This document shows, piece by piece, positions 27,080-59,560 of a DNA stretch of 64,000 bases (within the stretch, counting starts at the first letter, position 1; each line of letters begins with the position of its first letter). The stretch is from Microbacterium sp. Marseille-Q6648 (GTDB taxonomy: Bacteria; Actinomycetota; Actinomycetes; Actinomycetales; Microbacteriaceae). The position numbers and the translations under genes were made by a program. The notes below the pieces were generated by a model. It saw nothing but the letters and a program-made list of their open reading frames with translations, searched no databases and had not been told where the DNA came from. Location of the stretch: NCBI RefSeq assembly GCF_943181415.1, contig NZ_CALPBZ010000002.1, positions 434,001 through 498,000 of the forward strand. Reading direction: 5' to 3'.

Positions 27080-27124
27080 ATGCCCGAGAGCGTCCGACCC
27101 CGCATACCCACCCGCCGCGCATGA
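27080..27124 (+). CDS. 14-codon upstream ORF coupled to the fused CGD-like gene
   Basis: ATG 27080 follows an AAGGAG ribosome site at ideal spacing and encodes MPESVRPRIPTRRA. Its TGA overlaps the ATG of the next gene (ATGA at 27121). The downstream ATG has no ribosome site of its own, so this short ORF probably delivers ribosomes to it by termination-reinitiation. Whether the peptide itself has a role is unknown. An alternative is that the annotated start of the large gene is wrong, but no better in-frame start exists. Confidence 0.5.
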   Translation: MPESVRPRIPTRRA

Positions 27125-28563
27125 CGCTGCACGCCCTGCGGGACGACGCACTGCAGTCGGCGCCCGATGGCTTCACCCTGAGGCTGGGTCTGCCGTGGAT
27201 CCGCTCCCTGCCGGTGTCGTCGCTGGTCGACCTCGAAGTGACCGTGGACGGCGAGCCCGTCGCCGAACCGCGCGTCGAGGCGGATGCCGCGGACTGGTGG
27301 TTTCTGCAGGACCGCCTCGACGTGCGCGGCGACAGACCCCTGGCGGCGGGCGCACACCAGGTTGTGGTGGGCTTCCGCCTCGTGGTGCCGTACCTGCAGG
27401 CGGGACCAGGGGGGCCGCTTGCGCTGCCGTTCCGCATCGAGCGCGACCTCGTCCTGGATGCGGGCGCCCCTTCGTCTCGTCGCTCCGCTCCTCGCTCAGG
27501 GTCCGGGGCGGCGGCGGACGGATACCCGGACGCTGAGCGAGCGGCGCAGCCGCGAGACGAAGCGCGCTGGACGCTCGCCGCCAGCGGCTTCAACGTCACG
27601 CCGCTCGTCATCGCCGCCGATCGTCCCGCCACCGACCTCGTCGTCGACCTCGCCCGGAACGTCGCGCGGGTCGTGGAACTCGAGCCGGGACAGCTGTGGC
27701 GGACGTTCCCCGCCCCCGAGGACGCCGAGGTCGACGCCTTCCGCGACCGCCTGGCGGCCGCCGGCGGATCGGTGAGCATCGTCGGTGCGAGCCTCGACGA
27801 CTGGACCGGCGCAGGCCAGCGCCTCGACGACGACGAGCGCCTGGCGTTCCTGCTGCCGCAGCTGCGCGCGGCGAGCCGCGTGGGCGCGCAGGGCGTGCGA
27901 CTGCCGATCGGCCAGGCCGGCAGGGCGCTCCTGCAGCGTCTGGTGCCACATCTCGAGCAGCTCGACCTGGTGCTGCTCGAAGAGATCCAGGGCCAGCAGA
28001 CGCCCGACTCCCCCGCGACGTCCGCCGCGCTCGACAGCATCGCCGCCCTCGACCATCCGCTGGTGCGGGTGCTCGTCGACATCAGCATGCTCATGCCGGC
28101 GCTTCCGCTCAGCTACCTCGAGCGCCTGCGGGCAGGCGGCATCCCGCACGACCTCGTTGCTCGCCTCGAGAACGACTGGCGCGACCCCGCGACCGCCGAG
28201 GCCGTCGTGACGCACCTCCGCTCCGGCGCGGTGCCGGGCGCCGTCCACACGCTGTACATGAACCTCCTCGTGCGGTTCGGTCGTTCGGATGCGACCGTGC
28301 TGCGCGGCATCCTGCCTCTCGTCGGCGCCTTCCACCTGAAGTTCTGGGATCTCGACGACTCCGACGGACGCGTGTCGAACCCGATCCGCGACGTCGGCAC
28401 CCTCCTGCGCGGGTCGGATTTCACCGGCACCCTGTGCAGCGAGTGGGGCGGGCACGAGTGGCTCGACGACGACCCCTACGAGATCACCCGCGGGCACCTC
28501 GAGCTCGCCCGCGATGCACTCGCGCAGGGAGCTTCCCTCACCGCGCGGACCCCGAATCGATGA
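27121..28563 (+). CDS. Fused CGD beta-alpha-like protein, diverged
   Basis: A 480-residue protein whose first ~115 residues resemble the small beta-subunit proteins of this window (LRLGLPWIRSLPVSSL, then WWFLQDRLDV and GFRLVVPYLQ). Residues ~150-480 form a TIM barrel like the CGD alpha subunits. Likely metal ligands survive: Glu in LLEEIQ, Asp in VDISML, His in FHLKFWDLDD, Glu in CSEWGGHE. Between the domains a 38-bp inverted repeat (27470-27562) is inserted in frame and encodes a Ser/Arg/Ala-rich linker. The barrel is more diverged than the other copies, so a changed substrate or weak activity is possible. It forms an operon with the ThuA-like gene, 16 bases downstream. Confidence 0.65.
   Translation: MTLHALRDDALQSAPDGFTLRLGLPWIRSLPVSSLVDLEVTVDGEPVAEPRVEADAADWWFLQDRLDVRGDRPLAAGAHQVVVGFRLVVPYLQAGPGGPLALPFRIERDLVLDAGAPSSRRSAPRSGSGAAADGYPDAERAAQPRDEARWTLAASGFNVTPLVIAADRPATDLVVDLARNVARVVELEPGQLWRTFPAPEDAEVDAFRDRLAAAGGSVSIVGASLDDWTGAGQRLDDDERLAFLLPQLRAASRVGAQGVRLPIGQAGRALLQRLVPHLEQLDLVLLEEIQGQQTPDSPATSAALDSIAALDHPLVRVLVDISMLMPALPLSYLERLRAGGIPHDLVARLENDWRDPATAEAVVTHLRSGAVPGAVHTLYMNLLVRFGRSDATVLRGILPLVGAFHLKFWDLDDSDGRVSNPIRDVGTLLRGSDFTGTLCSEWGGHEWLDDDPYEITRGHLELARDALAQGASLTARTPNR
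27470..27562. repeat. 38-bp inverted repeat inserted within a coding sequence
   Basis: Left arm 27470-27507 (starts CTTCGTCTCG, ends GTCCGGG) and right arm 27525-27562 (its imperfect reverse complement, ending CGAGACGAAG) flank a 17-base GC-rich loop. The 93-base element is a multiple of three and stays in frame. The same arm sequence (CTTCGTCTCG..CTCGCTCAGCGTCCGG) recurs at 31735, so this is a dispersed palindromic element of the REP/BIME kind. Confidence 0.75.
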
Positions 28564-30555: not shown

Positions 30556-31839
30556 TCAGACGGATGCCGCGGCGTCCACCGCGACTCGGACCCAGGCCGA
30601 GCCATTCTCACTCGACCGCTCGACCGCGTCGAGGACGCGCTGCACCGACAGTCCCTCGTCGAACGTGGGGTGAGGGTCGGCGCCCTCGGCGATGGCGGTC
30701 ACGAGATCGACGACCTGATGACTGAATCCATGCTCGTAGCCCAGCATGTGCCCGGCCGGCCACCACGCCGAGACGTACGGATGCTGGGACTCGGTGACGA
30801 GGATGCGGGTGAAGCCCTGCCGGTCGGCGGGCGCCGTGCGATCGTAGAGCTGCAGGCTGTTGAGATCTTCGAGGTCGAACGCGAGCGAGCCCTTGTCGCC
30901 GGACACCTCGATCGTCAGGGCGTTCTTGCGTCCGGTCGCGAAGCGCGTCGCCTCGAAGGACGCCAGCGCGCCGCCGGCGAGCCGACCGGTGAAGATCGCC
31001 ACGTCGTCGACCGTCACCTGCCCGACACCCTCGGCGGCGGTGCCGCTCAGCCCCGAGCCCGCGCCCTGGAGCGGGCGCTCCTTGACGATGGTGTCCATGG
31101 TCCCCGACACCGATTCGACGGCGAGGCCGGTGACGAACTGAGTCATGTCGATGATGTGCGCACCGATGTCGCCCAGCGCTCCCGAGCCGGCGTGCTCCTT
31201 CTGCAGGCGCCACGCCAGCGGCATCTGCGGGTCGACGAGCCAGTCCTGCCGGTACGCCGCGCGCACCTGCTGCACGGTGCCGATCACGCCCTCGGCGATG
31301 AGGTCGCGCAGCAGGGTCACGGCCGGGACGCGGCGATAGGTGAAGCCCACCATCGCGCGCACGCCGCGGCCGGCAGCGCGGGTCGCGGCATCCGCCATCG
31401 CCTCGGCCTCGGCGACGGTGTTCGCGAGCGGCTTCTCGCACAGGACGTGCTTGCCCGCTGCGAGAGCTGCGATGGCGATCTCGGCGTGCGAGTCGCCGGG
31501 TGTGACGATGTCGACGACGTCGATGTCGTCGCGCGCGATCACGTCGCGCCAGTCGGTCGCCGACTCGGCCCAGCCCCACTTCGCTGCGGCCGCGCTGACC
31601 GCATCGGCGTTCCGGCCCACCAGCACGGCCATCTCGACCGTTGCGGGCAGGTCGAACATCCGCGGCGCCTGCCGCCAGCCCACGGAGTGGGCCGCGCCCA
31701 TGAACCCGTGCCCGATCATCGCGACGCGGAGGCGCTTCGTCTCGCTGCGCTCGCTCAGCGTCCGGGGTGTGCTGCGCTCGCTCAGCGTCCGGGGGGTGCT
31801 GTGCTCGCTCAGCGTCCGGGGGGTGCTGTGCTCGCTCAT
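30556..31839 (-). CDS. Gfo/Idh/MocA oxidoreductase with repeat-encoded N-terminus
   Basis: A 427-residue sugar oxidoreductase. The dinucleotide fold starts at residue ~38 ([13 protein letters not shown]), followed by the EKP signature (LCEKPLA), [16 protein letters not shown] with the usual Asp/His pair, and a C-terminal beta-sheet domain. The first 36 residues are three and a half copies of SEHSTPRTL, encoded by a 27-bp tandem repeat derived from a dispersed palindromic element. This tail is very unlikely to fold and looks like a recent insertion. Start ATG 31839 overlaps the beta-subunit stop (ATGA). It likely oxidises or reduces the keto sugar released by the CGD enzymes. Confidence 0.85.
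31735..31836. repeat. 27-bp tandem repeat in the 5' end of the Gfo/Idh gene
   Basis: About 3.5 copies of CTGTGCTCGCTCAGCGTCCG plus GGGGGTG. The block begins with CTTCGTCTCGCTGCGCTCGC, which is one arm of the palindrome found at 27470-27562. The 27-base period keeps the frame and adds nine residues per copy, so copy number can change without breaking the gene. Confidence 0.8.
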
Positions 31840-32252
31840 GCCAGCACGACCTCGCGCTCGACCGGCACGCGGTTGGTGACGTAGCGGCCGGGGCCGCCGT
31901 CGGCGCCGGGCGAGATCTGCATGTAGAGCAGGCGCATCGTGAGCACCACCTCGACGGTGAGCTTCTCGCCCTGCTCGGGCGCCCGACCGAGGTCGATGAC
32001 GACATCGGGACGGTCGGCGACGAACCACAGGGTCTCGGACTGCTCGGGCAGCTCCTCGATCCGGTATTCGCGGCCCTGCAGCACGAAGCGGAGTCGGTCC
32101 TTCGGGATCGACTCGCCGTTGACGGATGCCGCGACGTCATCGACCGCCGAGAGCCACAGGCTCCGGTACCAGGGCAGCTGCAGCGAGACCGCGAGGCCGG
32201 TGTCGGTGCGCCGGACGTCCTTGTCGGCGAAGAGGGAATTGTGGGTGGCCAT
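31836..32252 (-). CDS. C-glycoside deglycosidase beta-subunit-like protein (DUF6379 type)
   Basis: A 138-residue beta-sandwich protein. Motifs shared with the other beta domains in this window are LSLQLPWYRSLWLSAV-like (here SLQLPWYRSLWLSAVDDV), LRFVLQGREYRIEEL, ETLWFVADRP and LYMQISPGADGGPGRYV. This is the family first called DUF6379 and later recognised as the small beta subunit of C-glycoside deglycosidases (DgpC/CarC type), which pairs with a TIM-barrel alpha subunit. Two alpha-like genes lie directly upstream in the same operon. Its sequence is closest to the N-terminal domain of the fused protein at 53262-54737. Confidence 0.8.
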   Translation of the reverse strand: MATHNSLFADKDVRRTDTGLAVSLQLPWYRSLWLSAVDDVAASVNGESIPKDRLRFVLQGREYRIEELPEQSETLWFVADRPDVVIDLGRAPEQGEKLTVEVVLTMRLLYMQISPGADGGPGRYVTNRVPVEREVVLA

Positions 32253-32268: not shown

Positions 32269-33054
32269 TCAGGCGTAGGTGTCGGTGAAGTGCTCGTGCG
32301 GCTCGGGCGGTGCCGGCTCGAGCTTCTGCACGGTCTGCGGGCTGTACGGGTGGTTGGTGCCGGGCACCGGCTCGTCGGCGGGGGGCATGAAGACGGGCTT
32401 GCCGTCGTCGCCGAAGTACATGAGGTCGAGGTCGAACGCGCCCTGGTTCTTCAGGCCGAAGCTGACCCAGTTCTCCTCGAACGGCGCGCGCGCCAGCTCG
32501 TAGCAGCGGAACTTCCAGAACTTCCACTCGCCGTCCTGCTTGAGGAAGTCGATGGCGTACTTGCACCAGACCCAGTGCGCCCACACCTTCTTGCCGAGCA
32601 CCTCCTCCGGCGAGTACATGTCGGGAAACGCCTCGGCCACCTTCGGGTCGGTGAGTCCCGACTCCGTGCCGGCCATCATCCACACGCCCTTGGCGGTCTT
32701 GCCGTCGGCGGCGACCTCGATGACGGGGGTGTTCGTGGCGTGGAGGATGAGCTTGCCCTCGGGGTGCGGACGGCCGCGGTGGTAGTCGGTCACGCTCTGC
32801 CACGTCGTGTACTGACCGGCGTTGGTGTACCGGGCGCGGATGCCCTCCGTGCCCTCCTTGACCCAGAGCGGGATGATCTGCTCGTCCTCGAAGGCGTTGT
32901 GCAGGTACATATACCGGTTGAACAGGTTCTCGACCTGCCCGCGGTCCTCCGCGCGCTGTGCGAGGGCGCGCGCGCCGGCCACCTCATCTCGCAGGCGCGC
33001 GAGCTCGGCGGTGATCTCCTCGAGGGAGGCGGGGGCGATGGTGGTGTCAGACAT
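32269..33054 (-). CDS. NTF2/SnoaL-like protein
   Basis: A 261-residue protein with a coiled-coil-like N-terminus (LEEITAELARLRDEVAGARA) and a SnoaL-like NTF2 fold: QVENLFNRYMYLHNA, then GVWMMAGTES and HWVWCKYAIDFLKQDGEWKF. Family members are cyclases, isomerases, dehydratases or non-catalytic partners. It overlaps the stop of the alpha-like gene by eight bases and precedes the beta-like gene by 16. This places it inside the CGD gene set and suggests a role on the aglycone or the keto-sugar intermediate. No catalytic residues can be assigned. Confidence 0.75.
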   Translation of the reverse strand: MSDTTIAPASLEEITAELARLRDEVAGARALAQRAEDRGQVENLFNRYMYLHNAFEDEQIIPLWVKEGTEGIRARYTNAGQYTTWQSVTDYHRGRPHPEGKLILHATNTPVIEVAADGKTAKGVWMMAGTESGLTDPKVAEAFPDMYSPEEVLGKKVWAHWVWCKYAIDFLKQDGEWKFWKFRCYELARAPFEENWVSFGLKNQGAFDLDLMYFGDDGKPVFMPPADEPVPGTNHPYSPQTVQKLEPAPPEPHEHFTDTYA

Positions 33055-34108
33055 GGGCGGTCTCCTTCGACTGCTCGGCGACGGTGTCCTCGATGGTCTT
33101 GCGCATCAGCGCGTGCTGCTTCTTCACGAGATCGATCGGGTCGGCCTCGCCGAGGTCCTGGAACGCGTGGCCTTCCCACTCGCTCGAGAGATAGCCCTGG
33201 TAGCCGCCCACGACGAACTGCTTCACGATGCGCGGGATGTCCATCGCGGGCTCGTCGCCGCTCTCGTCGATGTCGTAGAACTTCGCGTGCACGTGGAACA
33301 TCTGGGGCATGATGTCGAGCCACTCCTCCGGCGGCACCAGACCGTGCATGTTGAAGGCGAGACGCGTGAACGGCCCGAACGTGAGCGGGTCCACGCCCTC
33401 GCTCACGAGATAGTCCTCGAACTTCTGGTTGCGCACGTGCATCGGCGTGGGCTCGTGCCAGATCTCGTCCATGACCGGGAAGTGCCTCTCGTCCATCCCC
33501 ATCTGCCCGAGCGTCCGCAGGAGCGTGGGCGACAGGCTGTGCATGGTGGAGGAGAAGTCGGCGGTGAAGCCGAGGCGCTCGGACTGCAGCTCGTCGTACA
33601 TCTCGCGCATCTGCAGCACCTGGGGGTTGTTGGGCCCGGACGGTGCGTGGATCTCGTAGCCGAGGTACTGGTCGTACTTCTCGGCGAGGGGCAGCAGGCT
33701 CCGCAGCAGCTCTTTGCCGTGCGAGCGGATGACGATGCGCTTGAAGCCGAGGGTGTGGGCGGTCTTGAGCTGACGCGCGAGGAAGTCGTGCTCCTCGTCG
33801 GGCGTCATGTCGCGATCCTTGCGCCGACCCATGTCGAGGTTCGTGCCGACGGCACTCGCCTCGAGACCGTACTTCTCGAGCGAGTCGAACCAGAGCTTCA
33901 CGAAGTCCTCGTCGACGTCGGGGTAGCTGCGCAGCAGCTGCGCGATGTTGAACTCGACGCCGGGGCCGATGCCCTCGTCGTGCACCGCCTTGATGAGGGT
34001 CTCGGGGGTGTACTGGCCGGCTGCGAACTCGCTGGTCATGGAGTACAGCGTCGTGCCCAGCTTGATGCCGGTGCCGGCGATGCCGTCGTGGATCTGCGGC
34101 AGGGTCAT
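33047..34108 (-). CDS. C-glycoside deglycosidase alpha-subunit-like TIM barrel (alpha 1)
   Basis: A 353-residue TIM barrel of the xylose-isomerase-like superfamily. Likely Mn ligands are Glu152 (YEIHAP), Asp184 (TADFSSTMH), His272 or His274 (FHVHAKFYDIDE) and Glu310 (SSEWEGH). Nearby His190 may be the acid/base. This residue set and the HVHAKFYDID block are those of CGD alpha subunits (CarB/DgpB type), which remove an aglycone from a 3-keto C-glycoside by an elimination-like reaction. It is closely related to the C-terminal domain of the fused protein at 53262. Start ATG 34108 overlaps the stop of the second alpha-like gene. Confidence 0.8.
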   Translation of the reverse strand: MTLPQIHDGIAGTGIKLGTTLYSMTSEFAAGQYTPETLIKAVHDEGIGPGVEFNIAQLLRSYPDVDEDFVKLWFDSLEKYGLEASAVGTNLDMGRRKDRDMTPDEEHDFLARQLKTAHTLGFKRIVIRSHGKELLRSLLPLAEKYDQYLGYEIHAPSGPNNPQVLQMREMYDELQSERLGFTADFSSTMHSLSPTLLRTLGQMGMDERHFPVMDEIWHEPTPMHVRNQKFEDYLVSEGVDPLTFGPFTRLAFNMHGLVPPEEWLDIMPQMFHVHAKFYDIDESGDEPAMDIPRIVKQFVVGGYQGYLSSEWEGHAFQDLGEADPIDLVKKQHALMRKTIEDTVAEQSKETAHV

Positions 34109-35232
34109 GCTCCCGCTCCTTCCGTGGTGGGCAACCAGGCTCCGAGCTGCGCGCGGGCCTCTGCCAGATCGGTGATCATGCGCGAGCCCGCGTCCGCCGC
34201 GGCCGAGCGCTGCACCGCCTGTTCGGCGGCGATGATGTCGAACGGCGACTGCCAGTGGTTCCAGTGCCAGCCCTCGTACTCGCTGGAGATCGCGCCGTTG
34301 TAGCCGTTCTCGACCAGCAGTCTCACGAGATCGCGCACGGGAACCGAGGGCTCTTCGCCGTCGTCGTCGATGCCGAAGAACTTGCCGTGCACATGCTTGA
34401 TCCACGGGAAGATCTCGAGCCAGTCGTCCACGCGCGCCGGACCGAACAGGCCGGTGCCGTTGATGCCGAAGTCGATACCCAGGTCGGGACGGCCGTTCTG
34501 GGCGGCGAGGCCGATGAAGGATCCGAAGCGCTTGCCGTGCTCGGCCTGGTCGGCCGGGGGGCCCTGCTCGTAATAGGTGTTCCACAGGTCGACGACCTTG
34601 ACCAGCAGCTCTTCGGACGCGCCGCGGCGGCGGTACGCCTCGATGAGCGACGGAGCGAACCCCGACACGGTCGCGCCCCAGTCCATCGTGAAGCCGAGGA
34701 AGGGGGAGCCGACCTTCTCGTAGCGGTCCCGCAGGGCGAGGATCCTCGGGTGCGAGGCGTACTGGTCGGCGTGCACCTCGAGCGCCAAGGTGACACCGTG
34801 CGCCTCGGCGATGGGGGCGAGGGCCTCCATCGAGTCGGGGGTGATCGAGATCTGCACGCGGGCGATCGGGAAGCCGAGCTTCGCGGCCGCCTTGATCTGC
34901 CGTGTCATGTACTCGATGAGCTCGTCCTGGTTCAGCAGGCGATCCCGGTGGATGCCGATGTCGGCGTTCACGGCGAGCGAGGTCGTGGTGAGCCCGACTT
35001 CGGCGACGAGGTCCTGGAACCAGCCCGCGTACGCGTCGTCGATCTCGGGGAACCCGCGGAAGCTGGAGAACCCGATGATCTCGAGCCCCGGCCCGAAGCC
35101 CTCGGCCGCCGTCTTGCGGATGAGCCCCTCGAGGTCGTACTCCCGCGCGTGGAATGCGCGGGTGAAGCTGTACAGCGTGACGCCCTGGATCGGGCTGCCC
35201 AGCCCACCGGTGCGCTCCGGAGTCGCGGTCAT
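34105..35232 (-). CDS. C-glycoside deglycosidase alpha-subunit-like TIM barrel (alpha 2)
   Basis: A 375-residue paralogue of the alpha 1 protein with the same ligand pattern: Glu in LALEVHADQ, Asp in FTMDWGATVSG, His in IKHVHGKFFGIDDDG and Glu in SSEYEGWHW. The TMDWGATVSG segment replaces ADFSSTMH, so the His present in alpha 1 is missing and substrate choice or chemistry may differ. A C-terminal extension (RMITDLAEARAQLGAW) is extra. It overlaps the beta 2 gene by four bases, which suggests the two products pair as a complex. Confidence 0.8.
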   Translation of the reverse strand: MTATPERTGGLGSPIQGVTLYSFTRAFHAREYDLEGLIRKTAAEGFGPGLEIIGFSSFRGFPEIDDAYAGWFQDLVAEVGLTTTSLAVNADIGIHRDRLLNQDELIEYMTRQIKAAAKLGFPIARVQISITPDSMEALAPIAEAHGVTLALEVHADQYASHPRILALRDRYEKVGSPFLGFTMDWGATVSGFAPSLIEAYRRRGASEELLVKVVDLWNTYYEQGPPADQAEHGKRFGSFIGLAAQNGRPDLGIDFGINGTGLFGPARVDDWLEIFPWIKHVHGKFFGIDDDGEEPSVPVRDLVRLLVENGYNGAISSEYEGWHWNHWQSPFDIIAAEQAVQRSAAADAGSRMITDLAEARAQLGAWLPTTEGAGA

Positions 35233-35636
35233 GCCGCCACCGCCTTCATGGTCTTGGTGTTCGTCTCGTCGATGTGGAGGGTCTCGGACTCGGAGATGAT
35301 GATGTACGGGATGTAGAGCGTGAGCCCGACGGTCACCTCGTGCTCGGCATCCGCATCTGCGATCACATCGCCCGAGAGGACCGCGGAGTCGGTGGGGAAC
35401 CACCACTCCTCGGTGTTGGTGCGCAGCTCGTCGAAGGTGAACTCGCGCCCGTTCATCTGCCAGCGCAGAGAGTCTGCGGGGGCGACGATGCCGTCGATCG
35501 TCAGCGTCGCGCCGGCGATGCACGAGCCCGGAAGAGCTCGGTACCAGGGCAGCCGGACCTCGACGGCCGAGCGCCGCCCGTCGGTCGTGAGCGTGCCCTG
35601 CTCGATGATGCGGTCGGGGATCACGAAGACCTCCAC
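35229..35636 (-). CDS. C-glycoside deglycosidase beta-subunit-like protein (beta 2)
   Basis: A 135-residue small beta protein with VEVRLPWYRALPGSCI, LRWQMNGREFTFDEL, EEWWFPTDSAV and TLYIPYIIISESE, the same order of motifs as the beta protein at 31836. It leads the minus-strand operon, and its stop overlaps the alpha 2 start. The end (HIDETNTKTMKAVAA) is shorter than in beta 1 and lacks the GPGRYV segment. Probably the partner of alpha 2. Confidence 0.75.
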   Translation of the reverse strand: MEVFVIPDRIIEQGTLTTDGRRSAVEVRLPWYRALPGSCIAGATLTIDGIVAPADSLRWQMNGREFTFDELRTNTEEWWFPTDSAVLSGDVIADADAEHEVTVGLTLYIPYIIISESETLHIDETNTKTMKAVAA

Positions 35637-35689: not shown

Positions 35690-35709
35690 ATGTCTTATTC
35701 AGACATAAG
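35690..35709. promoter_or_regulatory. Operator-like inverted repeat ahead of the CGD operon
   Basis: ATGTCT-TATTC-AGACAT (35690-35706) is a perfect six-base inverted repeat. It continues as AAG, so the minus strand reads CTTATGTCTGAAT. It overlaps the last codons of the GMC gene and lies about 55 bases upstream of the beta 2 start. The same 13 bases recur ahead of the fused CGD operon at 56147. Confidence 0.65.
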
Positions 35710-37224
35710 CAAGGAGATCTTGCGAGCGCCCTTGACCGCGAGCGCGACGCCGGTGAGCGTCGGATTGCACGCGGTGGCGGTGGGGATGACGCCGTTGCCG
35801 GCGACGAAGAGCCCGGGCGCCGCCCAGACCTCGCTGTCGGGCGAGCACACGCTGGTCCCGTCGTCGACGGACCCCATGCGCGTCGTGCCCTGATAGTGCA
35901 GCGACGCGCCGAGCGGCATCATGAACGGGCGGTCGTCGAGCGGCTCCCCGATCGCCCGCCCCAGGCGCACGACCTCGTCCTTGGCGCGCGCGATGATCTC
36001 GTGGTCGCGCGACGTCAGGGTGTAGTGGAGAGTCATCGCCGGCATCCCGTAGCCGTCGTGGGCGGCATCCGAGAACTCGACCCGATCGCTCGCCTGCAGG
36101 TCCTTCGCGCAGAAGAGACCGAGCCCCACGATCGAGCCGGGGGCGGCGGGATCGTCGTCGGCGAGCGTGACCGGCGACGCGTCGAGCTGCATCACCTGGC
36201 CGTGGAAGGGCATGTCGTCGGTGAAGGGCACCCAGGTGACGCCGCTGTACTCGCTGAGTCCGGTGGTCGCGGCTCCCTCGTCGCCCGCGGCGGGAACGAA
36301 GTCGCGGATGCGCACGGCGAACACGATCTGGGCCTGGTCGTTCAGGTAGCGCCCCAGTGCATCGGGGCGGATGCCGGAGGCCCACAGCAGCTGCGGCGTG
36401 CGCAGCGCATCTGCCGCCACGACGACGAATCGCGCACGGACCTCGTGACGCTCGCCGGTGCGGCGGTCGGTGACCTCCACGCCCGCCGCGCGGCCGTCCT
36501 CGAGAAGGACCCGCGTGACGAGCGACTCGTCGTACAGCGCGAAGTCCGGGTTCGCGCGCGTGGTCTCGCCGAGCACGACGTCCGATCCGGACCACACCAG
36601 CCTGCCGTCATCGCGTCGGTGCACCGCGAGGGGCATGCGCTGGACGCGTTCGTGCTCCTCGCGCCCGTCGTCGACCGCCGACGCCAGCCGACCGCGCACG
36701 AGCGGCGCGTGGGGAGACGAATCGAACGCGTCGCTGGTCACGCCGAGCAGCCGCTCACCCTCGGCCAGCAGCTCGTCCAGTTCGCCTGTGTCATCCAGGA
36801 AGCCGATGCGCTCGCTGTCGTTGGGGCGCGGGCAGGCGCCCGTCCAGTGCGCCGCCATGCCGCCGACGTTGCTCGACATCGCCGCGACCGGGAGGCCGTC
36901 CTCGCCGTCGACCTGGAAGCCGTCCTCGAGCAGATAGGTCCCGGGCCGCGCGCGACGCTGGGCGGTCTTCACGATGCCGCCGACGCGCTCGCCCCCCTCC
37001 CGGGCGGACGGCCCTTCGGACCGCATCTGCGCGCGGGCGCGATCGTCGGCGTCGGCGATGTTCTTCACATGCGCCCCGGGCGGGTCCGAGACGGTCGGCC
37101 CGACCTCGAACATCGCGATGGTCGCGCCGGGCGAGGTCTCGCTGAGGATGCGCGCGTAGGCCGCGCCGGTCGGACCGCTGCCGACGATGGCGACGTCGAC
37201 GGATGCCGGATACCGGCCGCTCAC
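35695..37224 (-). CDS. GMC-type FAD oxidoreductase (CarA-like C-glycoside 3-oxidase candidate)
   Basis: A 509-residue GMC oxidoreductase starting at GTG 37224, which overlaps the upstream stop (GTGA). FAD motif GSGPTG lies near residue 12; the flavin segment is NVGGMAAHWTGACPRP; the active-site pair is His443 (SLHYQGTTRMG) and Asn487 (TACNPTL). It is about as similar in layout to the GMC protein at 12608 as paralogues usually are. CarA of Microbacterium, an enzyme of this type, oxidises the 3-hydroxyl of carminate and other C-glycosides to the 3-keto form that CGD needs. It lies directly before the CGD gene set on the same strand. Confidence 0.8.
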   Translation of the reverse strand: MSGRYPASVDVAIVGSGPTGAAYARILSETSPGATIAMFEVGPTVSDPPGAHVKNIADADDRARAQMRSEGPSAREGGERVGGIVKTAQRRARPGTYLLEDGFQVDGEDGLPVAAMSSNVGGMAAHWTGACPRPNDSERIGFLDDTGELDELLAEGERLLGVTSDAFDSSPHAPLVRGRLASAVDDGREEHERVQRMPLAVHRRDDGRLVWSGSDVVLGETTRANPDFALYDESLVTRVLLEDGRAAGVEVTDRRTGERHEVRARFVVVAADALRTPQLLWASGIRPDALGRYLNDQAQIVFAVRIRDFVPAAGDEGAATTGLSEYSGVTWVPFTDDMPFHGQVMQLDASPVTLADDDPAAPGSIVGLGLFCAKDLQASDRVEFSDAAHDGYGMPAMTLHYTLTSRDHEIIARAKDEVVRLGRAIGEPLDDRPFMMPLGASLHYQGTTRMGSVDDGTSVCSPDSEVWAAPGLFVAGNGVIPTATACNPTLTGVALAVKGARKISLLMSE

Positions 37225-39955: not shown

Positions 39956-39956
39956 G

Positions 39957-40916: not shown

Positions 40917-40990
40917 CCGCTCTCTGACCTCGTCGTCATGCACCCCGCTTCGGGTGCGCCCACAGTCAGTATCACGCGCTTGCGTCGAAA

Positions 40991-44298: not shown

Positions 44299-44370
44299 GT
44301 CAGGCTGATGGTGCGGCGCAAGCCGGGCCGGCCTGGGGCTGGCCGACAACGACGTCACGAAAGGGTCGAC

Positions 44371-45675
44371 ATGACACAGCACACAGCATCCCGGAACCTC
44401 CGGTGGGCGCTTCTGGCCGCCCCCCTCGCCGGAGTCCTCGTCCTCGCCGGCTGCGCGGGCGGAGGAGACGCCGGCAACGACGGCGATGGAGGCGACAACG
44501 GCGGCGACGCCAACGCGCCCTTCAGCGTCATGGTCGCTCAGGCCAACGACCAGGACGACTACTACGCCCAGATCATCGAGCAGTACTCGGAAGAGACCGG
44601 CACCGAGGTCGAGGTCATCCCTTACCCGTCCGACGCCTACAACACCCAGGTCACCACGCAGCTGCAGGGCGGCAACGCCGCGGACGTCATGATTCTCGCG
44701 CCCGGCACCGGTCAGCCGATCTCGGTGATCTCGCTCGCCGAAGCCGGCTTCCTCGAGCCCCTGGGCGACACGGCGGACTCGGTCAACCCCGTCGGCAGCG
44801 AGTCGCAGTTCCAGCTCGACGGCGAGACCTACGCGCAGGCGACGGCCCTCACCCCCGTCGGCATGGTCTTCAACGCGACGGCGGCCGAAGAGGCGGGGAT
44901 CGACTACCCCGAGACGTACGACGACCTGCTGACGGCGTGCGCCGACGCACGCGACGCGGGCAAGAGCTTCACGGTCCTCGCCGGAGGCATCCCCTTCAAC
45001 ACGGGCCTGTACTCGATGCTGATCTCGGCCACCCGCGTGTACGCCGAGACCCCGGACTGGAACGAGCAGCGCGCGGCCGGCGAGGTCACCTTCGCCGACA
45101 GCAACTGGCGCCAGGTCCTCGAGGACATCGCCGAGATGAACGAGGCCGGCTGCTTCCAGGACGGCGCCGCGGGCGGCACCTTCGACAACATCACCGCCGG
45201 GATGGGCTCGGGCTCGTCGCTCACCGCCGCGGTGCCGGGCAGCGCGGCCGCCTCGATCAGCGAGGCGACCGGGCAGGAGCTCAACGTGCAGGCATTCCCG
45301 CCCGCCGACGGCCAGGAGGCGTTCACGGTCACGGGCGCCAACTACGCGTGGGGCATCAATGCCGCCTCGGACGACGACGCCAAGGCCTCGGCGCAGGCGT
45401 TCCTCGAGTGGGTCGCGCAGCCCGAGCAGGCGAAGGCGTACGCCGAGCTCTCGGGCGCTGTGCCGGTGACCGGCATCGTCGCGGAGGAGCTGCTGCCGCA
45501 GTACGCGCCGATCGGCGAACTGCTCGCCGAGGGCCAGTTCACGAGCCTGCCGAACGCCACGTGGCCGAACCCCGCCATCTACGACGCGCTCGGCGCCGGG
45601 GTGCAGGGCATGCTGACCGGCCAGAAGACGGTCGATCAGGTGCTCGAGGAGATGGACGCCGCCTGGGGCGAGTGA
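44371..45675 (+). CDS. Sugar ABC transporter substrate-binding lipoprotein
   Basis: A 434-residue family-1 extracellular solute-binding protein with a lipoprotein signal (basic SRNLRW, hydrophobic core, lipobox VLAGC, Cys at about 28). A Gly/Asp/Asn-rich linker and the bilobal sugar-binding fold follow (LTPVGMVFNATAAEEAG is typical). It is anchored outside the membrane and delivers sugar to the permease pair at 39119-40916. Good ribosome site (GAAAGGG). A 15-bp hairpin and a GH3 glucosidase gene follow. Confidence 0.9.
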   Translation: MTQHTASRNLRWALLAAPLAGVLVLAGCAGGGDAGNDGDGGDNGGDANAPFSVMVAQANDQDDYYAQIIEQYSEETGTEVEVIPYPSDAYNTQVTTQLQGGNAADVMILAPGTGQPISVISLAEAGFLEPLGDTADSVNPVGSESQFQLDGETYAQATALTPVGMVFNATAAEEAGIDYPETYDDLLTACADARDAGKSFTVLAGGIPFNTGLYSMLISATRVYAETPDWNEQRAAGEVTFADSNWRQVLEDIAEMNEAGCFQDGAAGGTFDNITAGMGSGSSLTAAVPGSAAASISEATGQELNVQAFPPADGQEAFTVTGANYAWGINAASDDDAKASAQAFLEWVAQPEQAKAYAELSGAVPVTGIVAEELLPQYAPIGELLAEGQFTSLPNATWPNPAIYDALGAGVQGMLTGQKTVDQVLEEMDAAWGE

Positions 45676-53261: not shown

Positions 53262-54737
53262 TCAGGCACGCGCGACCGCCGAGCGCATGGCCGTGCGGAT
53301 GAGGTCGTGCTGCTTGCGCACGAGAACGAGCGGGTCGACCTCGCCGAGTTCGGCGAAGGCGTGACCTTCCCACTCGCTCGACCAGTAGCCGCGGTACCCG
53401 CCCTCGACGAACACGCGCACGTGCTCGGGGTAGTCGATCGCGGGCTCCTGACCGGTCTCGTCGATGTCGTAGAACTTCGCGTGCACGTGGAGGATCTGCG
53501 GCATGATGTCGGCCCACTCGCGAGGGTCGACGTGCCCGTGCATGTTGAACGCGAGATGCGCGAACGAACCGAGGCGCCCTGGATCGAAGTCGCGTCCGCG
53601 CAGGTAGGCGATGAACTCCTCCTGGCGCTCCCGCATGGTGGCGTCGGTCGCCCAGATCTGCTGCAGGCGGTCGACGGCCTCATCGTCGAGACCGGCGCGA
53701 CGGACGGCGCGCAGCAGCGTCGGCGACATCGCGTGCATCGTCGACGAGAAGTCGGCGACGAAGCCGAGCAGCGGCGAGTCCAGCTCGGCGTAGGTCTCGC
53801 GCACTTTCAGGATCGGCTCGGCGTTCGGACCCATCGGCGCGTGGATCTCGTACGCGAGCTTCAGCTCGAGCTGCTCGGCGATGGGCAGCAGCCGCCGCAG
53901 CAGCTCGGGCTTGGCGGACTGGATGCGCACGAGGGGGAAGCCGAGCTTCTTCGCGCCCTCGAACATGAGCTTCGAGAACTCGAACTCCTCGTCGGGGGTC
54001 ATGTCGCGGTCGCGGCGACGGCCCATGTCGAGGTTCGCGCCGAACGAGCTGGCGTCGAACCCGTGCCGGTCGAACGCGGCGCGCCACGTCCGCTCGAAGT
54101 CGTCCGACACCCGGGGGTAGGTCGGCAGCACCTGCGAAGCGACGATCTCGATGCCGGGGCCGATGCCGAGCTCGGCGACGCGATCGAGCAGTCCGTCGAA
54201 GTCATACCATCCCGCGCGGAACTCCGCGCTGGCGGAGTACAGCGTGAGGCCGAGCTGAAACGGGTCGCCCGCAACGGCGGGCGCGGGGGCCGTGGCCGCG
54301 GCGAGCGCGGGCGGGGCGGCCGGCGCATCGGTTGCGGTGAGGGTGAGACTCTGGTGCACGACGTTCGGCACGTACATCCCCGGGCCGCCGTCCTTGCCGG
54401 GCGCGATCTGCATGTAGGGCAAGCGCAGCTCGCCGTGGATCGTGACGTCGAGAGTGTCGCCGAGCGCGACCGGCTGATCGCGGCGGACGACCAGCAGCGG
54501 GTGCGCCTGCAGGTACCAGAGCGTCTCGCTCTGGTCAGGCAGTTCGTCCAGGGCGTACCGGGTGCCGCCGAGCTCGAAGGAGAGGTCGGATGCCGGGACG
54601 GGCGTTCCGTCGATCGTCAGAGAGATCGTCGACACCGACGACAGCCAAAGGCTGCGGTACCACGGGAGGGTGAGGGACAGCGCGAGCCCGTCCGGGTGCG
54701 GGCGGAGACTGTCGTCCTGGATGAGTCCGTTGGGCAT
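53262..54737 (-). CDS. Fused C-glycoside deglycosidase-like protein (beta domain + alpha TIM barrel)
   Basis: A 491-residue single chain. Residues 1-135 match the small beta proteins (LSLTLPWYRSLWLSSV, LSFELGGTRYALDEL, LPYMQIAPGKDGGPGMYV). An Ala/Pro-rich linker (about 137-157) follows, and residues 158-491 match alpha 1: YEIHAPMGPN (Glu), VADFSSTMH (Asp, His), LHVHAKFYDIDE (His), SSEWEGH (Glu). All expected metal ligands are present. Known CGDs are two separate chains, so a covalent beta-alpha form is notable. It follows another fused paralogue by 16 bases. Confidence 0.78.
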   Translation of the reverse strand: MPNGLIQDDSLRPHPDGLALSLTLPWYRSLWLSSVSTISLTIDGTPVPASDLSFELGGTRYALDELPDQSETLWYLQAHPLLVVRRDQPVALGDTLDVTIHGELRLPYMQIAPGKDGGPGMYVPNVVHQSLTLTATDAPAAPPALAAATAPAPAVAGDPFQLGLTLYSASAEFRAGWYDFDGLLDRVAELGIGPGIEIVASQVLPTYPRVSDDFERTWRAAFDRHGFDASSFGANLDMGRRRDRDMTPDEEFEFSKLMFEGAKKLGFPLVRIQSAKPELLRRLLPIAEQLELKLAYEIHAPMGPNAEPILKVRETYAELDSPLLGFVADFSSTMHAMSPTLLRAVRRAGLDDEAVDRLQQIWATDATMRERQEEFIAYLRGRDFDPGRLGSFAHLAFNMHGHVDPREWADIMPQILHVHAKFYDIDETGQEPAIDYPEHVRVFVEGGYRGYWSSEWEGHAFAELGEVDPLVLVRKQHDLIRTAMRSAVARA

Positions 54738-54753
54738 GATCGCTCGTTCCGGG

Positions 54754-56058
54754 TCAGAGGGTCGCGGCGATGCCGCGGATCAGGGAGTGCTGGCGACGCA
54801 CCTGTTCGATGGCGCGCCACGGGGTGCGCTCGCCTTCGTATTCGCTGGACAGATAGCCGGTGTAACCCGCGTCCTTGAGCGCCTGCAGGACCGGCCGCCA
54901 GGGGATCTGCTGGTCTTCGAGGTCGTCGTCGATGTCGTGGAACTTCGCCTGGATGAAGACCACGTACTCCGCGATGCCGGCGATGTCAGCGGGATCGACC
55001 GCGATGCCGTCGAGGAAGGCCGGCCGCTGACCCGGTAGCTCCCCCGGCTTGAGCGGAATCGGGCGGTCCTGGAAGATGCCGGTGTCCAGCAGCAGACCGA
55101 AGTGCTTCGTCCCGGTGCGCTGGATGAGGCCGATGTAGTCGTCGACCACCTCGTGCCTGATCGGCGTGGGCGAATGGATCTCGGGGCAGATGACGACGTC
55201 GAGTTCGTGTGCCAGATCGAGCGAGCGCTCGACAGCTTCGGTCCACGTGGGGTGCGGCACCAGATCGCTCGAGACGACGCCGATCTTCGGACGCACGAAC
55301 CGGAACCCGAGCCTCTTCGCCAGGCGCAGATCGCGCTGCAGCATCGCTGCCCCCTCGGCGGCGGTGAGGTCGCGGGCGTTCGGGCCGCTGGAGTGAAGGC
55401 GCGTGTCGATCCAGGAGCCGTAGTTGGTCGGCTCCAGCCGGTACTGCTCGAGAAGCGCGAACCACCGGTCGATCCATGCCGTGGGCGGCTCCGGGTAGTT
55501 CGCGACGTGCCCCTCGCCGAGGATCTCGATGCCGGTGGCGCCCACGTCCGCCACGTGCGCGAACGCCGTCTCGAGATCCATCACCGTGCCGAAGTCGTGC
55601 ATGAAGCTGTAGAGGCTCACGCCGTAGCGGAACGGTCCGCCGTCCGTCTCCGGTGACAGGGTGATGCGCCGCGTCGCCCGGTACGTCGACGGCTGGTGCT
55701 CGATCGGGATGTACGACATGCGCAGCCGCAGCTCGATGGAGACCTCGTGCACGCCCTCCGGGAGGCCCCCGTCGAAGGGGACGGTGATGACCGCGGCATC
55801 CTCGAGCGGCCAGCGCGCGCCCTCGGAATCCCACAGCTGCCGAAGCGTGTACGTCTCGCCCTGGAGCGTCCACAGCGGCACATCGGGTCCGACGTCGACC
55901 AGGTCTCCGACACGCACCGCGACGCCGTCGATGAGGGAGGCCGCCATACCGCGGTAGCTGGGCATGCGCAGCCGCAGCTGGAAGCCGGTGACACGATCGC
56001 CCTCACGGACGTTGCGGAAGCCGATGGACTGAAGGAGCTCGCGCTCGAGAAGCATCAC
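54754..56058 (-). CDS. Fused CGD-like protein, second copy (beta domain + alpha TIM barrel)
   Basis: A 434-residue paralogue of the fused protein, with a beta-type domain at 1-130 (LRLRMPSYRGMAASL, WTLQGETYTLRQLWD, ELRLRMSYIPI) and a TIM barrel at about 138-434. Ligand positions read Glu in VICPEIHSP, Asp in GLLLDTGIF, His or substitute in FIQAKFHDIDDD (first His replaced by Gln) and Glu in LSSEYEGER. The changed residues suggest a different substrate. GTG 56058 or ATG 56055 can be the start. First gene of a seven-gene minus-strand operon ending with the GH35-like gene. Confidence 0.7.
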   Translation of the reverse strand: MMLLERELLQSIGFRNVREGDRVTGFQLRLRMPSYRGMAASLIDGVAVRVGDLVDVGPDVPLWTLQGETYTLRQLWDSEGARWPLEDAAVITVPFDGGLPEGVHEVSIELRLRMSYIPIEHQPSTYRATRRITLSPETDGGPFRYGVSLYSFMHDFGTVMDLETAFAHVADVGATGIEILGEGHVANYPEPPTAWIDRWFALLEQYRLEPTNYGSWIDTRLHSSGPNARDLTAAEGAAMLQRDLRLAKRLGFRFVRPKIGVVSSDLVPHPTWTEAVERSLDLAHELDVVICPEIHSPTPIRHEVVDDYIGLIQRTGTKHFGLLLDTGIFQDRPIPLKPGELPGQRPAFLDGIAVDPADIAGIAEYVVFIQAKFHDIDDDLEDQQIPWRPVLQALKDAGYTGYLSSEYEGERTPWRAIEQVRRQHSLIRGIAATL

Positions 56059-56191: not shown

Positions 56192-56962
56192 CTACATCAA
56201 TCGCAGTTCGGCCTCGATGGCGGCGGCCGTCTCTCGCATGGCCGGCAGGAAGCGGTCGCGCACCGCGCCGGGATCGTCCGAGCTCGAACCGGTCGACACG
56301 TTCATCGCCGCGACCGTCGCGCCCGCGCGTCCGCGCAGTCCCACAGCGATCGACCGCAGTCCGGGTTCGAGCTCGCCGTCCACCAGCGCCCATCCCTGCT
56401 CACCCACGCGATCGAGTTCACGGGCGAGGGCGTGGGGATCGGTGAGTGTGCGATCGGTCAGGTGCGTCAGATCGGATGCCGCGATCACCGCATCCCGTTC
56501 GGGGCGCGGCATCCCTGCCAGCAGGACCCGGCCCATGCTGGTGGCGTAGGCGGGGAAGCGGGTGCCGATCGTGATCCGCACGTTCATGATGCGGCGGGTG
56601 GGCACCCGGGCGACGTAGACGACGTCGGTGCCGTCGAGCACCGCGGCCGAGACCGACTCGTCGACGGCGCGCGACAGCAGCTCCAGGTGCGGCTGCACGA
56701 TCTCGGGCAGCGACAGCGACGACAGATAGCTGAACCCGAGCTCGAGCACGCGCGGAGTGAGCGAGAACTCACGCTCGTCGCTGCGGACGTAGCCGAGCGC
56801 CACGAGCGTGCGCAGGAATCGGCTGGCCGCTGCGCGCGTGAGACCGGCGCGGCGCGCGACGTCGCTCAGCGTGAGCGAGGCGTGCTCGGCGTCGAAGGCA
56901 CGGATGACGGCCAGCCCTCGGGCGAGGGACTGGACGAAGTCGTCGGACTGCTTCTCGGGCAC
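56192..56962 (-). CDS. IclR family transcriptional regulator (PcaR/PcaU-like)
   Basis: A 256-residue IclR-type regulator: winged helix with LSDVARRAGLTRAAASRFL (about residues 30-48) and a C-terminal effector domain (GTRFPAYATSMGRVLLAG). The GTG start follows an AGGAGG site. Close relatives control the 3-oxoadipate pathway, and here it is the last gene of a CoA-transferase-thiolase-regulator operon, so it is the likely pathway regulator. The long dyad ahead of the operon (59566) is its probable target. Confidence 0.85.
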   Translation of the reverse strand: MPEKQSDDFVQSLARGLAVIRAFDAEHASLTLSDVARRAGLTRAAASRFLRTLVALGYVRSDEREFSLTPRVLELGFSYLSSLSLPEIVQPHLELLSRAVDESVSAAVLDGTDVVYVARVPTRRIMNVRITIGTRFPAYATSMGRVLLAGMPRPERDAVIAASDLTHLTDRTLTDPHALARELDRVGEQGWALVDGELEPGLRSIAVGLRGRAGATVAAMNVSTGSSSDDPGAVRDRFLPAMRETAAAIEAELRLM

Positions 56963-56996
56963 GCGGCCTCCTCGAACCGAGCGTAGGCAAGCCGGG

Positions 56997-58172
56997 TCAT
57001 CTCTCCAGGACGACCGCGAGCCCCTGGCCGACGCCGATGCAGATGGCGGCCACGGCCACGCCCCCGCCGCGGCGGGCCAGTTCGTGCGCCGCGTGCCCGA
57101 TGATGCGCCCGCCCGACGCTCCGAGTGGGTGGCCGATGGCGATCGCGCCGCCGTGGATGTTCACCTTCTCGGGGTCGAGGTCGGGCCAGCCCTGGATGCA
57201 CGCGAGGGACTGGGATGCGAAGGCCTCGTTGAGCTCGACGACGTCCACGTCCGCCCAGGTGCGACCGGCGCGGGCGAGTGCCTTGTTCGCGGCCTCGATG
57301 GGCGCGATGGGGAAGTCGTCGGGATCGACGCCGTGCGCGGCACGGCCCGCGATCCGCGCGAGCGGCTCGCCCTCGAGGACGCCCTCCCCCGCGATCAGCA
57401 CCGCCGACGCGCCGTCGTTGATGGACGAGGAGTTTCCGGCCGTCACCGATCCCGCGCCGTCCGCGGCGAAGAGGGCCTTCAGCCCGGCGAGCTTCTCGAC
57501 CGAGGTGTCGTCGCGGATGCCTTCATCGCGCGTCAGGTCGACGCCCGGCACGCCGACCGTCTCGGCGTCGTACACGCCTGCCGCCCAGGCAGCGGCGGCC
57601 AGACGGTGCGAGCGCACCGCGAACGCATCCTGGGCGTCCCGGTCGATGCCCCATTCGCGTGCGATCTTCTCGGCGGACTCCCCGTTCGAGATGGTCCAGT
57701 GCTTCGGCAGTGCCCTGTTGGTCATGCGCCACCCGATGGCGGTGTTCCACATGGTCTGGTTGCCGACGGCGGGGAAGGGCTTCGCCGACTTCTCGATCAC
57801 ATAGGGCGCGCGACTCATCGACTCGACGCCGCCGGCGAGGATGATCCCGGCATCCCCCGCCTCGATCGCCCTCGAACCCTGGATGACAGCCTCGACGCTC
57901 GAGGCGCAGAGCCGGTTGACCGTCACGCCGGTGACGCTCGTGGGCAGCCCCGCCAGCAGCGCTCCGAAGCGGGCGACGTTGCGGTTGTCTTCGCCCGCCT
58001 GATTGGCGTCGCCGAAGATCACGTCGTCGATGCGCGCGGGATCCAGCCCGGTGCGTTCGATGGTCGCCTTCATGACCAGAGCGGCGAGGTCGTCGGGCCG
58101 GATGCCGGAGAGCGCACCTCCTCCCCGCCCGAACGGCGTGCGCACGGCGTCGTAGATGAAGCTCGGTGGCAT
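56997..58172 (-). CDS. pcaF: 3-Oxoadipyl-CoA thiolase
   Basis: A 391-residue thiolase with the nucleophile Cys89 (NRLCASS), NIHGGAIAIGHPLGASGGR with His348, and Cys378 in CIGVGQG. The opening FIYDAVRTPFGRGGGALSG is characteristic of PcaF/PaaJ thiolases that split 3-oxoadipyl-CoA into succinyl-CoA and acetyl-CoA. It follows the CoA-transferase genes by three bases. An acetoacetyl-CoA thiolase is the main alternative, but the gene context supports 3-oxoadipate. Confidence 0.85.
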   Translation of the reverse strand: MPPSFIYDAVRTPFGRGGGALSGIRPDDLAALVMKATIERTGLDPARIDDVIFGDANQAGEDNRNVARFGALLAGLPTSVTGVTVNRLCASSVEAVIQGSRAIEAGDAGIILAGGVESMSRAPYVIEKSAKPFPAVGNQTMWNTAIGWRMTNRALPKHWTISNGESAEKIAREWGIDRDAQDAFAVRSHRLAAAAWAAGVYDAETVGVPGVDLTRDEGIRDDTSVEKLAGLKALFAADGAGSVTAGNSSSINDGASAVLIAGEGVLEGEPLARIAGRAAHGVDPDDFPIAPIEAANKALARAGRTWADVDVVELNEAFASQSLACIQGWPDLDPEKVNIHGGAIAIGHPLGASGGRIIGHAAHELARRGGGVAVAAICIGVGQGLAVVLER

Positions 58173-58175
58173 CGG

Positions 58176-58814
58176 TCAGCCTTCCAGATCGAGGCCGGTG
58201 AGGGCCGAGAGTGTCGCGGTGGTGTTGTCGCCGAACGCCTCGCGCACGACGAACCCCTCGGGGGCGATGTCGAAGATCCCGTGGTCGGTGTACACCCGCG
58301 TCACGCAGCCGACGCCGGTGAGGGGGTAGGTGCAGACGTCTACGAGCTTGGACTCGCCGGACTTGGTCAGCAGGTCGGTCATGACGAACACCTGCTTCGC
58401 GCCGATCGCCAGGTCCATCGCGCCGCCGACTGCGGGGATCGCGCCGGGAGCACCCGTCGACCAGTTCGCGAGGTCGCCGGTGCGGCTCACCTGGAACGCA
58501 CCGAGCACGCAGATGTCGAGGTGCCCGCCGCGCATCATGGCGAACGAGTCGGCGTGGTGGAAGTAGGCCGCGCCCGGCAGGGCCGTCACGGGCTGCTTGC
58601 CGGCGTTGATGAGGTCGGGGTCGACCGAGCCCACGGCGGGCGCCTCGCCCATGCCGAGAAGTCCGTTCTCGGTGTGCAGGATGATCTCGAGGTCGGCGGG
58701 AAGGAAGTTCGCGACGAGGGTCGGCGCCCCGATTCCGAGGTTCACGTAGGCGCCCTCGGGGATGTCTGCGGCGATGCGCGCGGCCAGTTCGTCACGGGTG
58801 ATGCGGGTGGTCAT
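58176..58814 (-). CDS. pcaJ: 3-Oxoadipate CoA-transferase, subunit B
   Basis: A 212-residue beta subunit of a family I CoA-transferase; the catalytic Glu49 is in the motif HTENGLLGMG. It forms a thioester with CoA moved from succinyl-CoA to 3-oxoadipate. The ATG overlaps the stop of subunit A (ATGA), as usual for equal expression. Acetoacetate CoA-transferase (ScoAB) is similar in sequence; the adjoining thiolase and IclR genes favour the 3-oxoadipate role. Confidence 0.85.
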   Translation of the reverse strand: MTTRITRDELAARIAADIPEGAYVNLGIGAPTLVANFLPADLEIILHTENGLLGMGEAPAVGSVDPDLINAGKQPVTALPGAAYFHHADSFAMMRGGHLDICVLGAFQVSRTGDLANWSTGAPGAIPAVGGAMDLAIGAKQVFVMTDLLTKSGESKLVDVCTYPLTGVGCVTRVYTDHGIFDIAPEGFVVREAFGDNTTATLSALTGLDLEG

Positions 58815-59560
58815 CGCGAACCCTCCTCGGTCAGCGGGTTGCCGTCGATGTCGACGCCGCCGACGAAGGCGCCGTCGCGCAGCCAGGCCCGCTCGCCCAC
58901 GGCGACGACTCGGTCCACGAACAGGCCGGGCGTAACGACTGCCTCGGGGTCGAGGGCGCCGAGCGGCACGATCTCGTCCACCTGGACGATCGTCGTGGTG
59001 GCGGCGGTGGCCATCACCGGCCCGAAGTTGCGGGCCGTCTCGCGGAAGACGAGGTTGCCCCATCGGTCGGCGCGGAACGCGCTGATGAGGGCGACGTCGG
59101 CGCGGATCGGGTACTCCAGCACGTAGTCGCGCCCGTCGATCGTGCGGGCCTCCTTGCCCTCCGCCAGCTGCGTGCCGACGCCCGTCGGGCTGAAGAAGGC
59201 GCCGATGCCGGCGCCGGCGGCGCGGATGCGCTCGGCGAGGTTGCCCTGCGGAACGATCTCGAGCTCGATCTCGCCCGCCCGGTAGAGGCTGTCGAAGACC
59301 CACGAGTCGTGCTGCCGGGGGAAGGAGCAGATGATCCGCCGCACGCGACGCTTGGACAGGAGCGCCGCCAGCCCCACGTCGCCGTTCCCGGCGTTGTTGC
59401 TGACGATCGTGAGATCGCCCGCGCCCTGGTCGATCAAGGCGTCGATGAGCTCCACCGGCTGACCGGCCCGCCCGAAGCCGCCGATGAGTACCGTCGCCCC
59501 GTCGCGGATGCCGGCGACGGCGGTCGCGGCATCCGGAACCGTCTTGTCGATCACGCGCAC
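58811..59560 (-). CDS. pcaI: 3-Oxoadipate CoA-transferase, subunit A
   Basis: A 249-residue alpha subunit of a family I CoA-transferase, with the glycine-rich LIGGFGRAGQP motif near residue 32 and SNNAGNGDVGL near residue 54. It pairs with subunit B. Start GTG 59560 or GTG 59554; the latter has better spacing to AGAGGAGG. First gene of the lower-pathway operon, downstream of a strong dyad. No upper protocatechuate genes (pcaGH, pcaB, pcaC, pcaD) are in the window. Confidence 0.85.
   Translation of the reverse strand: MRVIDKTVPDAATAVAGIRDGATVLIGGFGRAGQPVELIDALIDQGAGDLTIVSNNAGNGDVGLAALLSKRRVRRIICSFPRQHDSWVFDSLYRAGEIELEIVPQGNLAERIRAAGAGIGAFFSPTGVGTQLAEGKEARTIDGRDYVLEYPIRADVALISAFRADRWGNLVFRETARNFGPVMATAATTTIVQVDEIVPLGALDPEAVVTPGLFVDRVVAVGERAWLRDGAFVGGVDIDGNPLTEEGSR

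Follow-up and report, generated by a model that had tools for sequence, protein, structure and literature searches.

We analyzed a window of 64,000 nucleotides from Microbacterium sp. Marseille-Q6648 (positions 434001-498000 of contig C2; the genome is 3.49 Mb), in which two neighbouring minus-strand genes, here called A and B and separated by 16 bases, encode proteins of the C-glycoside deglycosidase (CGD) type with the beta and alpha modules joined in one chain. Taken as a whole, our data are best explained if A and B are two single-chain CGDs of different CGD lineages, a reading in which we have considerable confidence, with activities and substrates that are putative for both proteins, as is the in-chain packing of gene A. 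The features of the two genes are as follows.

53262..54737, minus strand: gene A, 491 residues, probable single-chain CGD of the AgCGD2 lineage (domain models, PDB sequence matches)
54336..54737, minus strand: beta-sandwich (CGDB) domain of gene A, residues 1-134; Tyr27 is aligned to PuCGD beta Tyr39
54264..54335, minus strand: Ala/Pro-rich linker of gene A, about residues 135-158; limits set from the strands of the predicted model
53265..54263, minus strand: alpha TIM barrel of gene A (PDB sequence matches; aligned to AgCGD2)
54754..56055, minus strand: gene B, 433 residues, probable single-chain CGD, orthologue of PDB 8qrz/8un2
55651..56055, minus strand: beta-sandwich (CGDB) domain of gene B
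54757..55629, minus strand: short alpha TIM barrel of gene B, with the motif FIQAKF, in which metal-ligand His269 is replaced by Gln

Domain content, solved relatives and conservation of genes A and B

Each gene is one open frame in which a CGDB domain (PF19906) is followed by an AP_endonuc_2 domain; a beta-type domain preceding an alpha-type TIM barrel in a single chain, as the first-pass annotation had proposed for both genes, was thus confirmed by domain models and reading frames. Both domains of gene B scored above the cut-off (CGDB, 106 bits; AP_endonuc_2, 58.6 bits), and the CGDB domain of gene A reached 46.3 bits against a cut-off of 27.6. Gene B has its conserved start at the ATG of 56055, one codon after the listed GTG at 56058, from which the protein would have 434 residues. 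The alpha and beta identities of gene A are settled by its closest PDB sequence matches, 7dnm_A (AgCGD2 alpha, E 1.2e-129) and 7dnm_B (AgCGD2 beta, E 5.2e-30). Gene A is 59% identical to AgCGD2 (AgCarB2-C2, PDB 7dnm/7dnn) in the alpha part and 42% in the beta part, with the metal ligands, His149 and Glu307 kept, but AgCGD2 has two chains, whereas in gene A an Ala/Pro linker joins both parts into one. With gene A, the AgCGD2 lineage would have a single-gene form.

Gene B is the orthologue of a single-chain CGD that has already been solved. Its residues 2-432 of 434 matched 8qrz_A (E 1e-242), and its predicted model superimposed on this chain at 2.3 Å over 421 residues, with 78% identity. PDB entries 8qrz (crystal) and 8un2 (cryo-electron microscopy), released on 2025-04-23 and titled as C-glucosyl deglycosidase of Microbacterium testaceum, contain a single chain of 435 residues, beta then alpha, with the same FIQAKF motif as gene B, the difference being that gene B is the orthologue from another genome. 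Over the 204 residues compared, 8qrz shows no difference from the gene B orthologue of M. testaceum NS220 (L007), encoded immediately upstream of the gene A orthologue in that strain. The earlier idea that characterised CGDs are two-chain complexes, which would make a covalent form a new architecture, has to be abandoned because 8qrz/8un2 is a solved single chain that matches gene B end to end. To our knowledge, separate alpha and beta chains are a trait of most described CGDs; this trait is absent from A and B, and it is not a defining one because 8qrz is one chain. The view of CGDs as always two-chain is thereby corrected, the single-chain form being widespread in Microbacterium, Arthrobacter and kin and, for lineage B, already present in the PDB. 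Our search of open-licence literature yielded no paper that we recognised as describing a fused CGD or 8qrz. An early guess that 8qrz and 8qvc were linked to levoglucosan enzymes was dropped once the PDB titles were seen. Among two-chain enzymes, the best match of gene B was EuCGD (DfgA-DfgB, PDB 7bvs/7dre), 38-39% identical in the aligned part of alpha, which differs in its two chains and in the residue preceding AKF, His instead of the Gln of gene B. The CGD of Deinococcus aerius (PDB 8qvc/8umc) has a CGD fold similar to A and B but also consists of two chains.

With gene A as query we fetched 80 loci, the best 80 of 106 relatives; these relatives occur mostly in records named Microbacterium, Agromyces, Arthrobacter, Pseudarthrobacter, Leifsonia and similar. 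Gene A was fused in 78 of the 80 loci (two with odd lengths, 361 and 786 residues, owing to start choice), the two exceptions being L083, where the genes are truly separate, and L078, which we interpret as a frameshift next to a deletion. The gap between the two domain-model matches was 20 residues in 77 of 84 fused A relatives and 19, 21 or 26 in the other seven; the Ala/Pro linker noticed earlier is therefore real and of nearly constant length. An assembly or frame error at the linker, with two chains actually made, had been named as a refutation of the fusion, and split relatives with ATGA overlaps do exist, but the fusion of A in 78 of 80 loci, the near constancy of the linker and the orthologue of gene B solved as one chain make this explanation practically negligible. 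Gene B was fused in 66 of the 80 loci, was a divergent split pair in five, was not seen in eight and was cut by the contig end in one. In the 65 loci with both genes fused, 8-87 bases lie between the B stop and the A start in 63, the outliers being an 8-base overlap (L055) and a spacing of 1201 bases (L028). L077 (a metagenome-assembled genome in a record named Fulvimarina sp.) and L078 (Planococcus sp.) carry A relatives whose best segments show 83% and 85% identity, like the Microbacterium ones, and are probably misassigned contigs.

Active-site residues, proposed reaction and domain packing

According to PMC8563793, the Mn2+ ligands of AgCGD2 are Glu147, Asp179, His269, Lys271 and Glu305, and His149 is the base, assisted by Glu307. 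Gene A residues Glu297, His299, Asp329, His419, Lys421, Glu455 and Glu457 align with E147, H149, D179, H269, K271, E305 and E307, and the motifs YEIHAP, VADFSS, HVHAKF and SSEWEGH carry these ligand and catalytic residues. Gene A has every expected metal ligand, as first noted, and the catalytic His too. None of the seven positions varied among the 84 fused A rows, in all of which beta Tyr39 (PuCGD numbering) was also kept; this Tyr is invariant in B as well.

Gene B keeps four of the five AgCGD2 metal ligands. The HVHAKF of gene A corresponds to FIQAKF, with Phe at the first His and Gln (residue 369 from the ATG, 370 from the GTG) at the second, the metal ligand His269; the Gln had been placed at the first His in the earlier description, which is corrected here. 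Gln occupies this position in every B row, whether fused (74 of 74) or split (13 of 13), and in 5 of 12 more distant rows. Because it is invariant in split and fused rows alike, it is a property of lineage B and is not due to fusion or decay; we had considered that the Gln might mark a decayed second copy, which was ruled out by its invariance and its presence in split relatives and in 8qrz. His269 seems not to define the CGD family, since the same Gln is present in 8qrz, which was deposited as a CGD. In lineage B, Gln may or may not replace His269 as a ligand.

We propose that A and B are metal-dependent beta-eliminases of 3-keto-glycosides. The GMC oxidase encoded in this locus (see below) would produce the 3-keto-glucoside. 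The C-terminal TIM barrel would bind Mn2+, with His149 and Glu307 (AgCGD2 numbering) taking the C2 proton of the 3-keto-glucoside, while the N-terminal beta-sandwich would supply the aglycone side of the pocket, with a Tyr stabilising the leaving phenolate; elimination would then release the aglycone and a keto-glycal. AgCGD2 was crystallised with homoorientin, a C6-glycosyl flavone, as stated in PMC8563793.

The main substrates of A and B might instead be O-glycosides or other 3-keto sugars, processed by an elimination of the type of O-glycoside beta-eliminases (OGE) or Lgd enzymes. In PMC10628242, OGE uses a similar TIM barrel, and AtOGE resembles CGDs in its metal site and catalytic His but differs in being without a beta subunit and in having His instead of a metal-binding Glu. 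The LgdB enzymes are PF01261 members (LgdB1 and LgdB2, described with about 275 and 325 residues), and the neighbours of A and B include a galactosidase of the glycoside hydrolase family 35 (GH35) type, a rhamnosidase and a module read as a sugar ABC transporter. All this fits such an alternative, but A and B invariably keep the counterpart of PuCGE beta Tyr39, whose mutation to Phe, according to PMC10628242, abolished >99% of C-glucoside cleavage while ~40% (a 2.4-fold loss) was kept with 3-keto-phlorizin. As the gene B orthologue is furthermore deposited as a C-glucosyl deglycosidase, we regard chief action on other substrates as quite improbable.

Several observations count against assigning both genes to single-chain CGDs. 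Lineage B is without the His269 metal ligand, and mutants of PuCGD and MiCGD with Ala at the equivalent position had dramatically reduced activity (PMC8563793). The AP_endonuc_2 match of gene A (PF01261, 29.8 bits) is slightly below the Pfam cut-off of 31.1. A GMC oxidase orthologue was found near A in only 7 of the 80 loci at our threshold for neighbour orthologues (≥45% identity over 70% of the length, in flanks of ≤6 kb), and in 21 of 80 at >40% identity. The alignments under the predicted models were shallow, with 33 rows for A and 21 for B. Lastly, the two domains of gene A taken jointly fitted poorly on 8un2/8qrz (15.9 Å over 382 residues for 8un2; 17.0 and 17.2 Å).

Structure prediction, which had been suggested as a check of the packing, gave a clear answer for gene B only, whose predicted fold is that of the solved single-chain CGD, 8qrz. 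The models had mean predicted local distance difference test (pLDDT) values of 84.3 for A and 80.6 for B, and predicted template modelling (pTM) scores of 0.85 and 0.82, respectively; comparison with the PDB was chain by single chain. The alpha domain of the gene A model superimposed on AgCGD2 alpha at 2.6 Å over 336 residues and its beta domain on AgCGD2 beta at 2.4-2.7 Å; each domain is thus predicted to fold as in AgCGD2, in a joint arrangement that, model on structure, is unlike 8un2/8qrz. No solved single-chain member of gene A's lineage was found among the PDB matches. The departure of the gene A model from the 8un2 arrangement, together with its long linker of about 24 residues, would be expected if the fused chains formed domain-swapped dimers, with the beta domain over another chain's alpha site and the fusion serving assembly and not in-chain catalysis. 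Nevertheless, the gene B model keeps the 8qrz single-chain arrangement (a comparison within one chain), and AgCGD2, the enzyme nearest to A, forms an alpha-beta heterodimer according to PMC8563793, which makes swapping unlikely in our judgement.

A third fused protein and probable repeated fusion

The tandem pair of fused genes is real, but two was too low a count, because a third fused CGD-like frame, T, lies elsewhere in the window, which also holds two split pairs:

27121..28563, plus strand: T, third fused CGD-like protein, 480 residues; start chosen
35229..35636, minus strand: split beta subunit b1
34105..35232, minus strand: split alpha subunit a1; start chosen
33047..34108, minus strand: split alpha subunit a2, of the lineage nearest to gene A; start chosen
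31836..32252, minus strand: split beta subunit b2

The N-terminus of T is CGDB-like (22 bits, below the cut-off of 27.6) and its alpha part matches 7dnm_A (E 1.2e-22). In lineage T, His149 is replaced by Gln and Glu307 by Gly in 10 of 10 alpha rows, while all five metal ligands are kept in all ten; at beta Tyr39, seven of nine beta domains have Ile and two distant ones Tyr (T itself has Ile). T was not filed as a CGD because H149, E307 and beta Tyr39 are substituted. Judging from these residues, T is probably not a C-glycoside eliminase, and our guess is a changed reaction on a keto sugar; lineage T would be a natural test of the CGD scaffold without its catalytic base. Its relatives were fused in 4 of 10 cases.

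CGD alpha domains were collected from three sources, namely the window, the 80 loci and genomes retrieved with PF19906 (20/299 in the family, 15/347 in the order and 5/396 in the phylum; the samples share genomes), which gave 328 rows, 243 of them unique and 240 uncut, the three cut rows being set aside. Assigned to the nearest window reference, a rule that also takes in distant rows, the 240 rows comprised 84 fused and 4 split for A, 76 fused and 23 split for B, 4 fused, 5 split and 1 without a beta on its strand for T, 24 split for a1 and 19 split for a2. Within a distance of 1.2, the numbers were 84 fused and 2 split for A, 74 and 7 for B, 4 and 3 plus 1 without a beta on its strand for T, 21 split for a1 and 19 split for a2; one A split row (L078) is a frameshift and was dropped. 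The tree was built from 61 chosen rows (31 fused, 30 split), omitting near-copies, L078 and, apart from lineage T and the two L157 rows, any row at a distance above 2 from all window references; L176 was scored as split although its beta frame sits on the opposite strand. On this unrooted tree, whose deep branches are long and weakly supported, the fused/split label changes at least 7 times, with 4 changes forced by well-supported branches. A single fused clade was rejected by the approximately unbiased (AU) test (p-AU 9.4e-53), ruling out one origin of all fused forms, although this test is blind to fusion versus fission. Several separate fused lineages exist, and we infer that the direction of change was fusion rather than fission.

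The split sisters suggest how fusion could occur. In L083 (Geodermatophilus), which is split and sister to A, an ATGA overlap joins the stop of beta to the start of alpha. Counted from the conserved YVxN to LGLTLYS, this pair has 16 + 20 = 36 intervening residues, the same as the 36 of fused gene A; the gene A linker is exactly as long as the beta tail plus the alpha N-terminus of this sister. Of the five split B sisters inspected, after removal of L036 as a duplicate, four overlap as ATGA (L043, L084, L173, L184) and one as GTGA (L012). Since the split sisters overlap stop-start and the linker lengths agree, each fusion may have needed only a small indel. The single-chain state would have arisen more than once, most likely through a lost frame break between overlapping, translationally coupled genes. 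Repeated fusion in a family that also has split sisters would make the benefit of covalent subunit linkage directly testable. Combining these results, we find it somewhat more probable than its contrary that beta and alpha fused independently at least three times, giving A, B and T, which share one catabolic locus with two split pairs, that the ATGA overlap made fusion easy through a single small indel, and that T, whose ten known members have all kept the metal site but lost their catalytic base, hence has a role other than C-glycoside beta-elimination. A more remote genome within this order (G525; L157, 1-7000) carries two more tandem fused CGD-like frames, whose sequences are distant from those of A, B and T.

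Neighbouring genes and the likely pathway

The other features of the locus considered here are the following.

35695..37200, minus strand: GMC oxidoreductase, likely a glycoside C3 oxidase feeding the CGDs; open reading frame open to 37347, start chosen
37221-38066, minus strand: isomerase-like TIM barrel, orthologues often near A/B in relatives
38149-39129, plus strand: LysR regulator, orthologues often near A/B in relatives
39119-40994, minus strand: two genes read as ABC permeases, orthologues often near A/B in relatives
44308-45675, plus strand: gene read as a binding protein

The split set (30556-37200, minus strand) consists of the GMC oxidase, two beta and two alpha CGD subunits, a SnoaL-like protein and a Gfo/Idh/MocA oxidoreductase. 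The GMC oxidase scored 785.1 bits against 7qf8 and 920.7 bits against 7dve, which we take to be Microbacterium CarA although the displayed molecule name is different. The likely order of the pathway is C3 oxidation followed by beta-elimination by CGD-type proteins. In this regard, PMC10646112 places psg3ox of Pseudarthrobacter siccitolerans 4J27 near two B genes and two C genes, all separate, a region much like the split set of the window. The record of this strain (L056) also has fused A and B.

Among the 80 loci, at the same threshold (≥45% identity over 70% of the length), genes related to the LysR gene were found in 62, to each of the two permeases in 44 and to the isomerase in 41. In the window this isomerase/LysR/ABC module ends ~7.6 kb from gene A, and the interval contains the GH35-type galactosidase, a weak arabinanase match, Abhydrolase_3, a GDSL-type hydrolase and a frame read as a putative GH3. 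Additionally, directly upstream of gene B (56192-59560, minus strand) lie genes for a PcaR-type regulator, a 3-oxoadipyl-CoA-type thiolase and a 3-oxoacid CoA-transferase, which suggest that a released aglycone is degraded via the beta-ketoadipate pathway.
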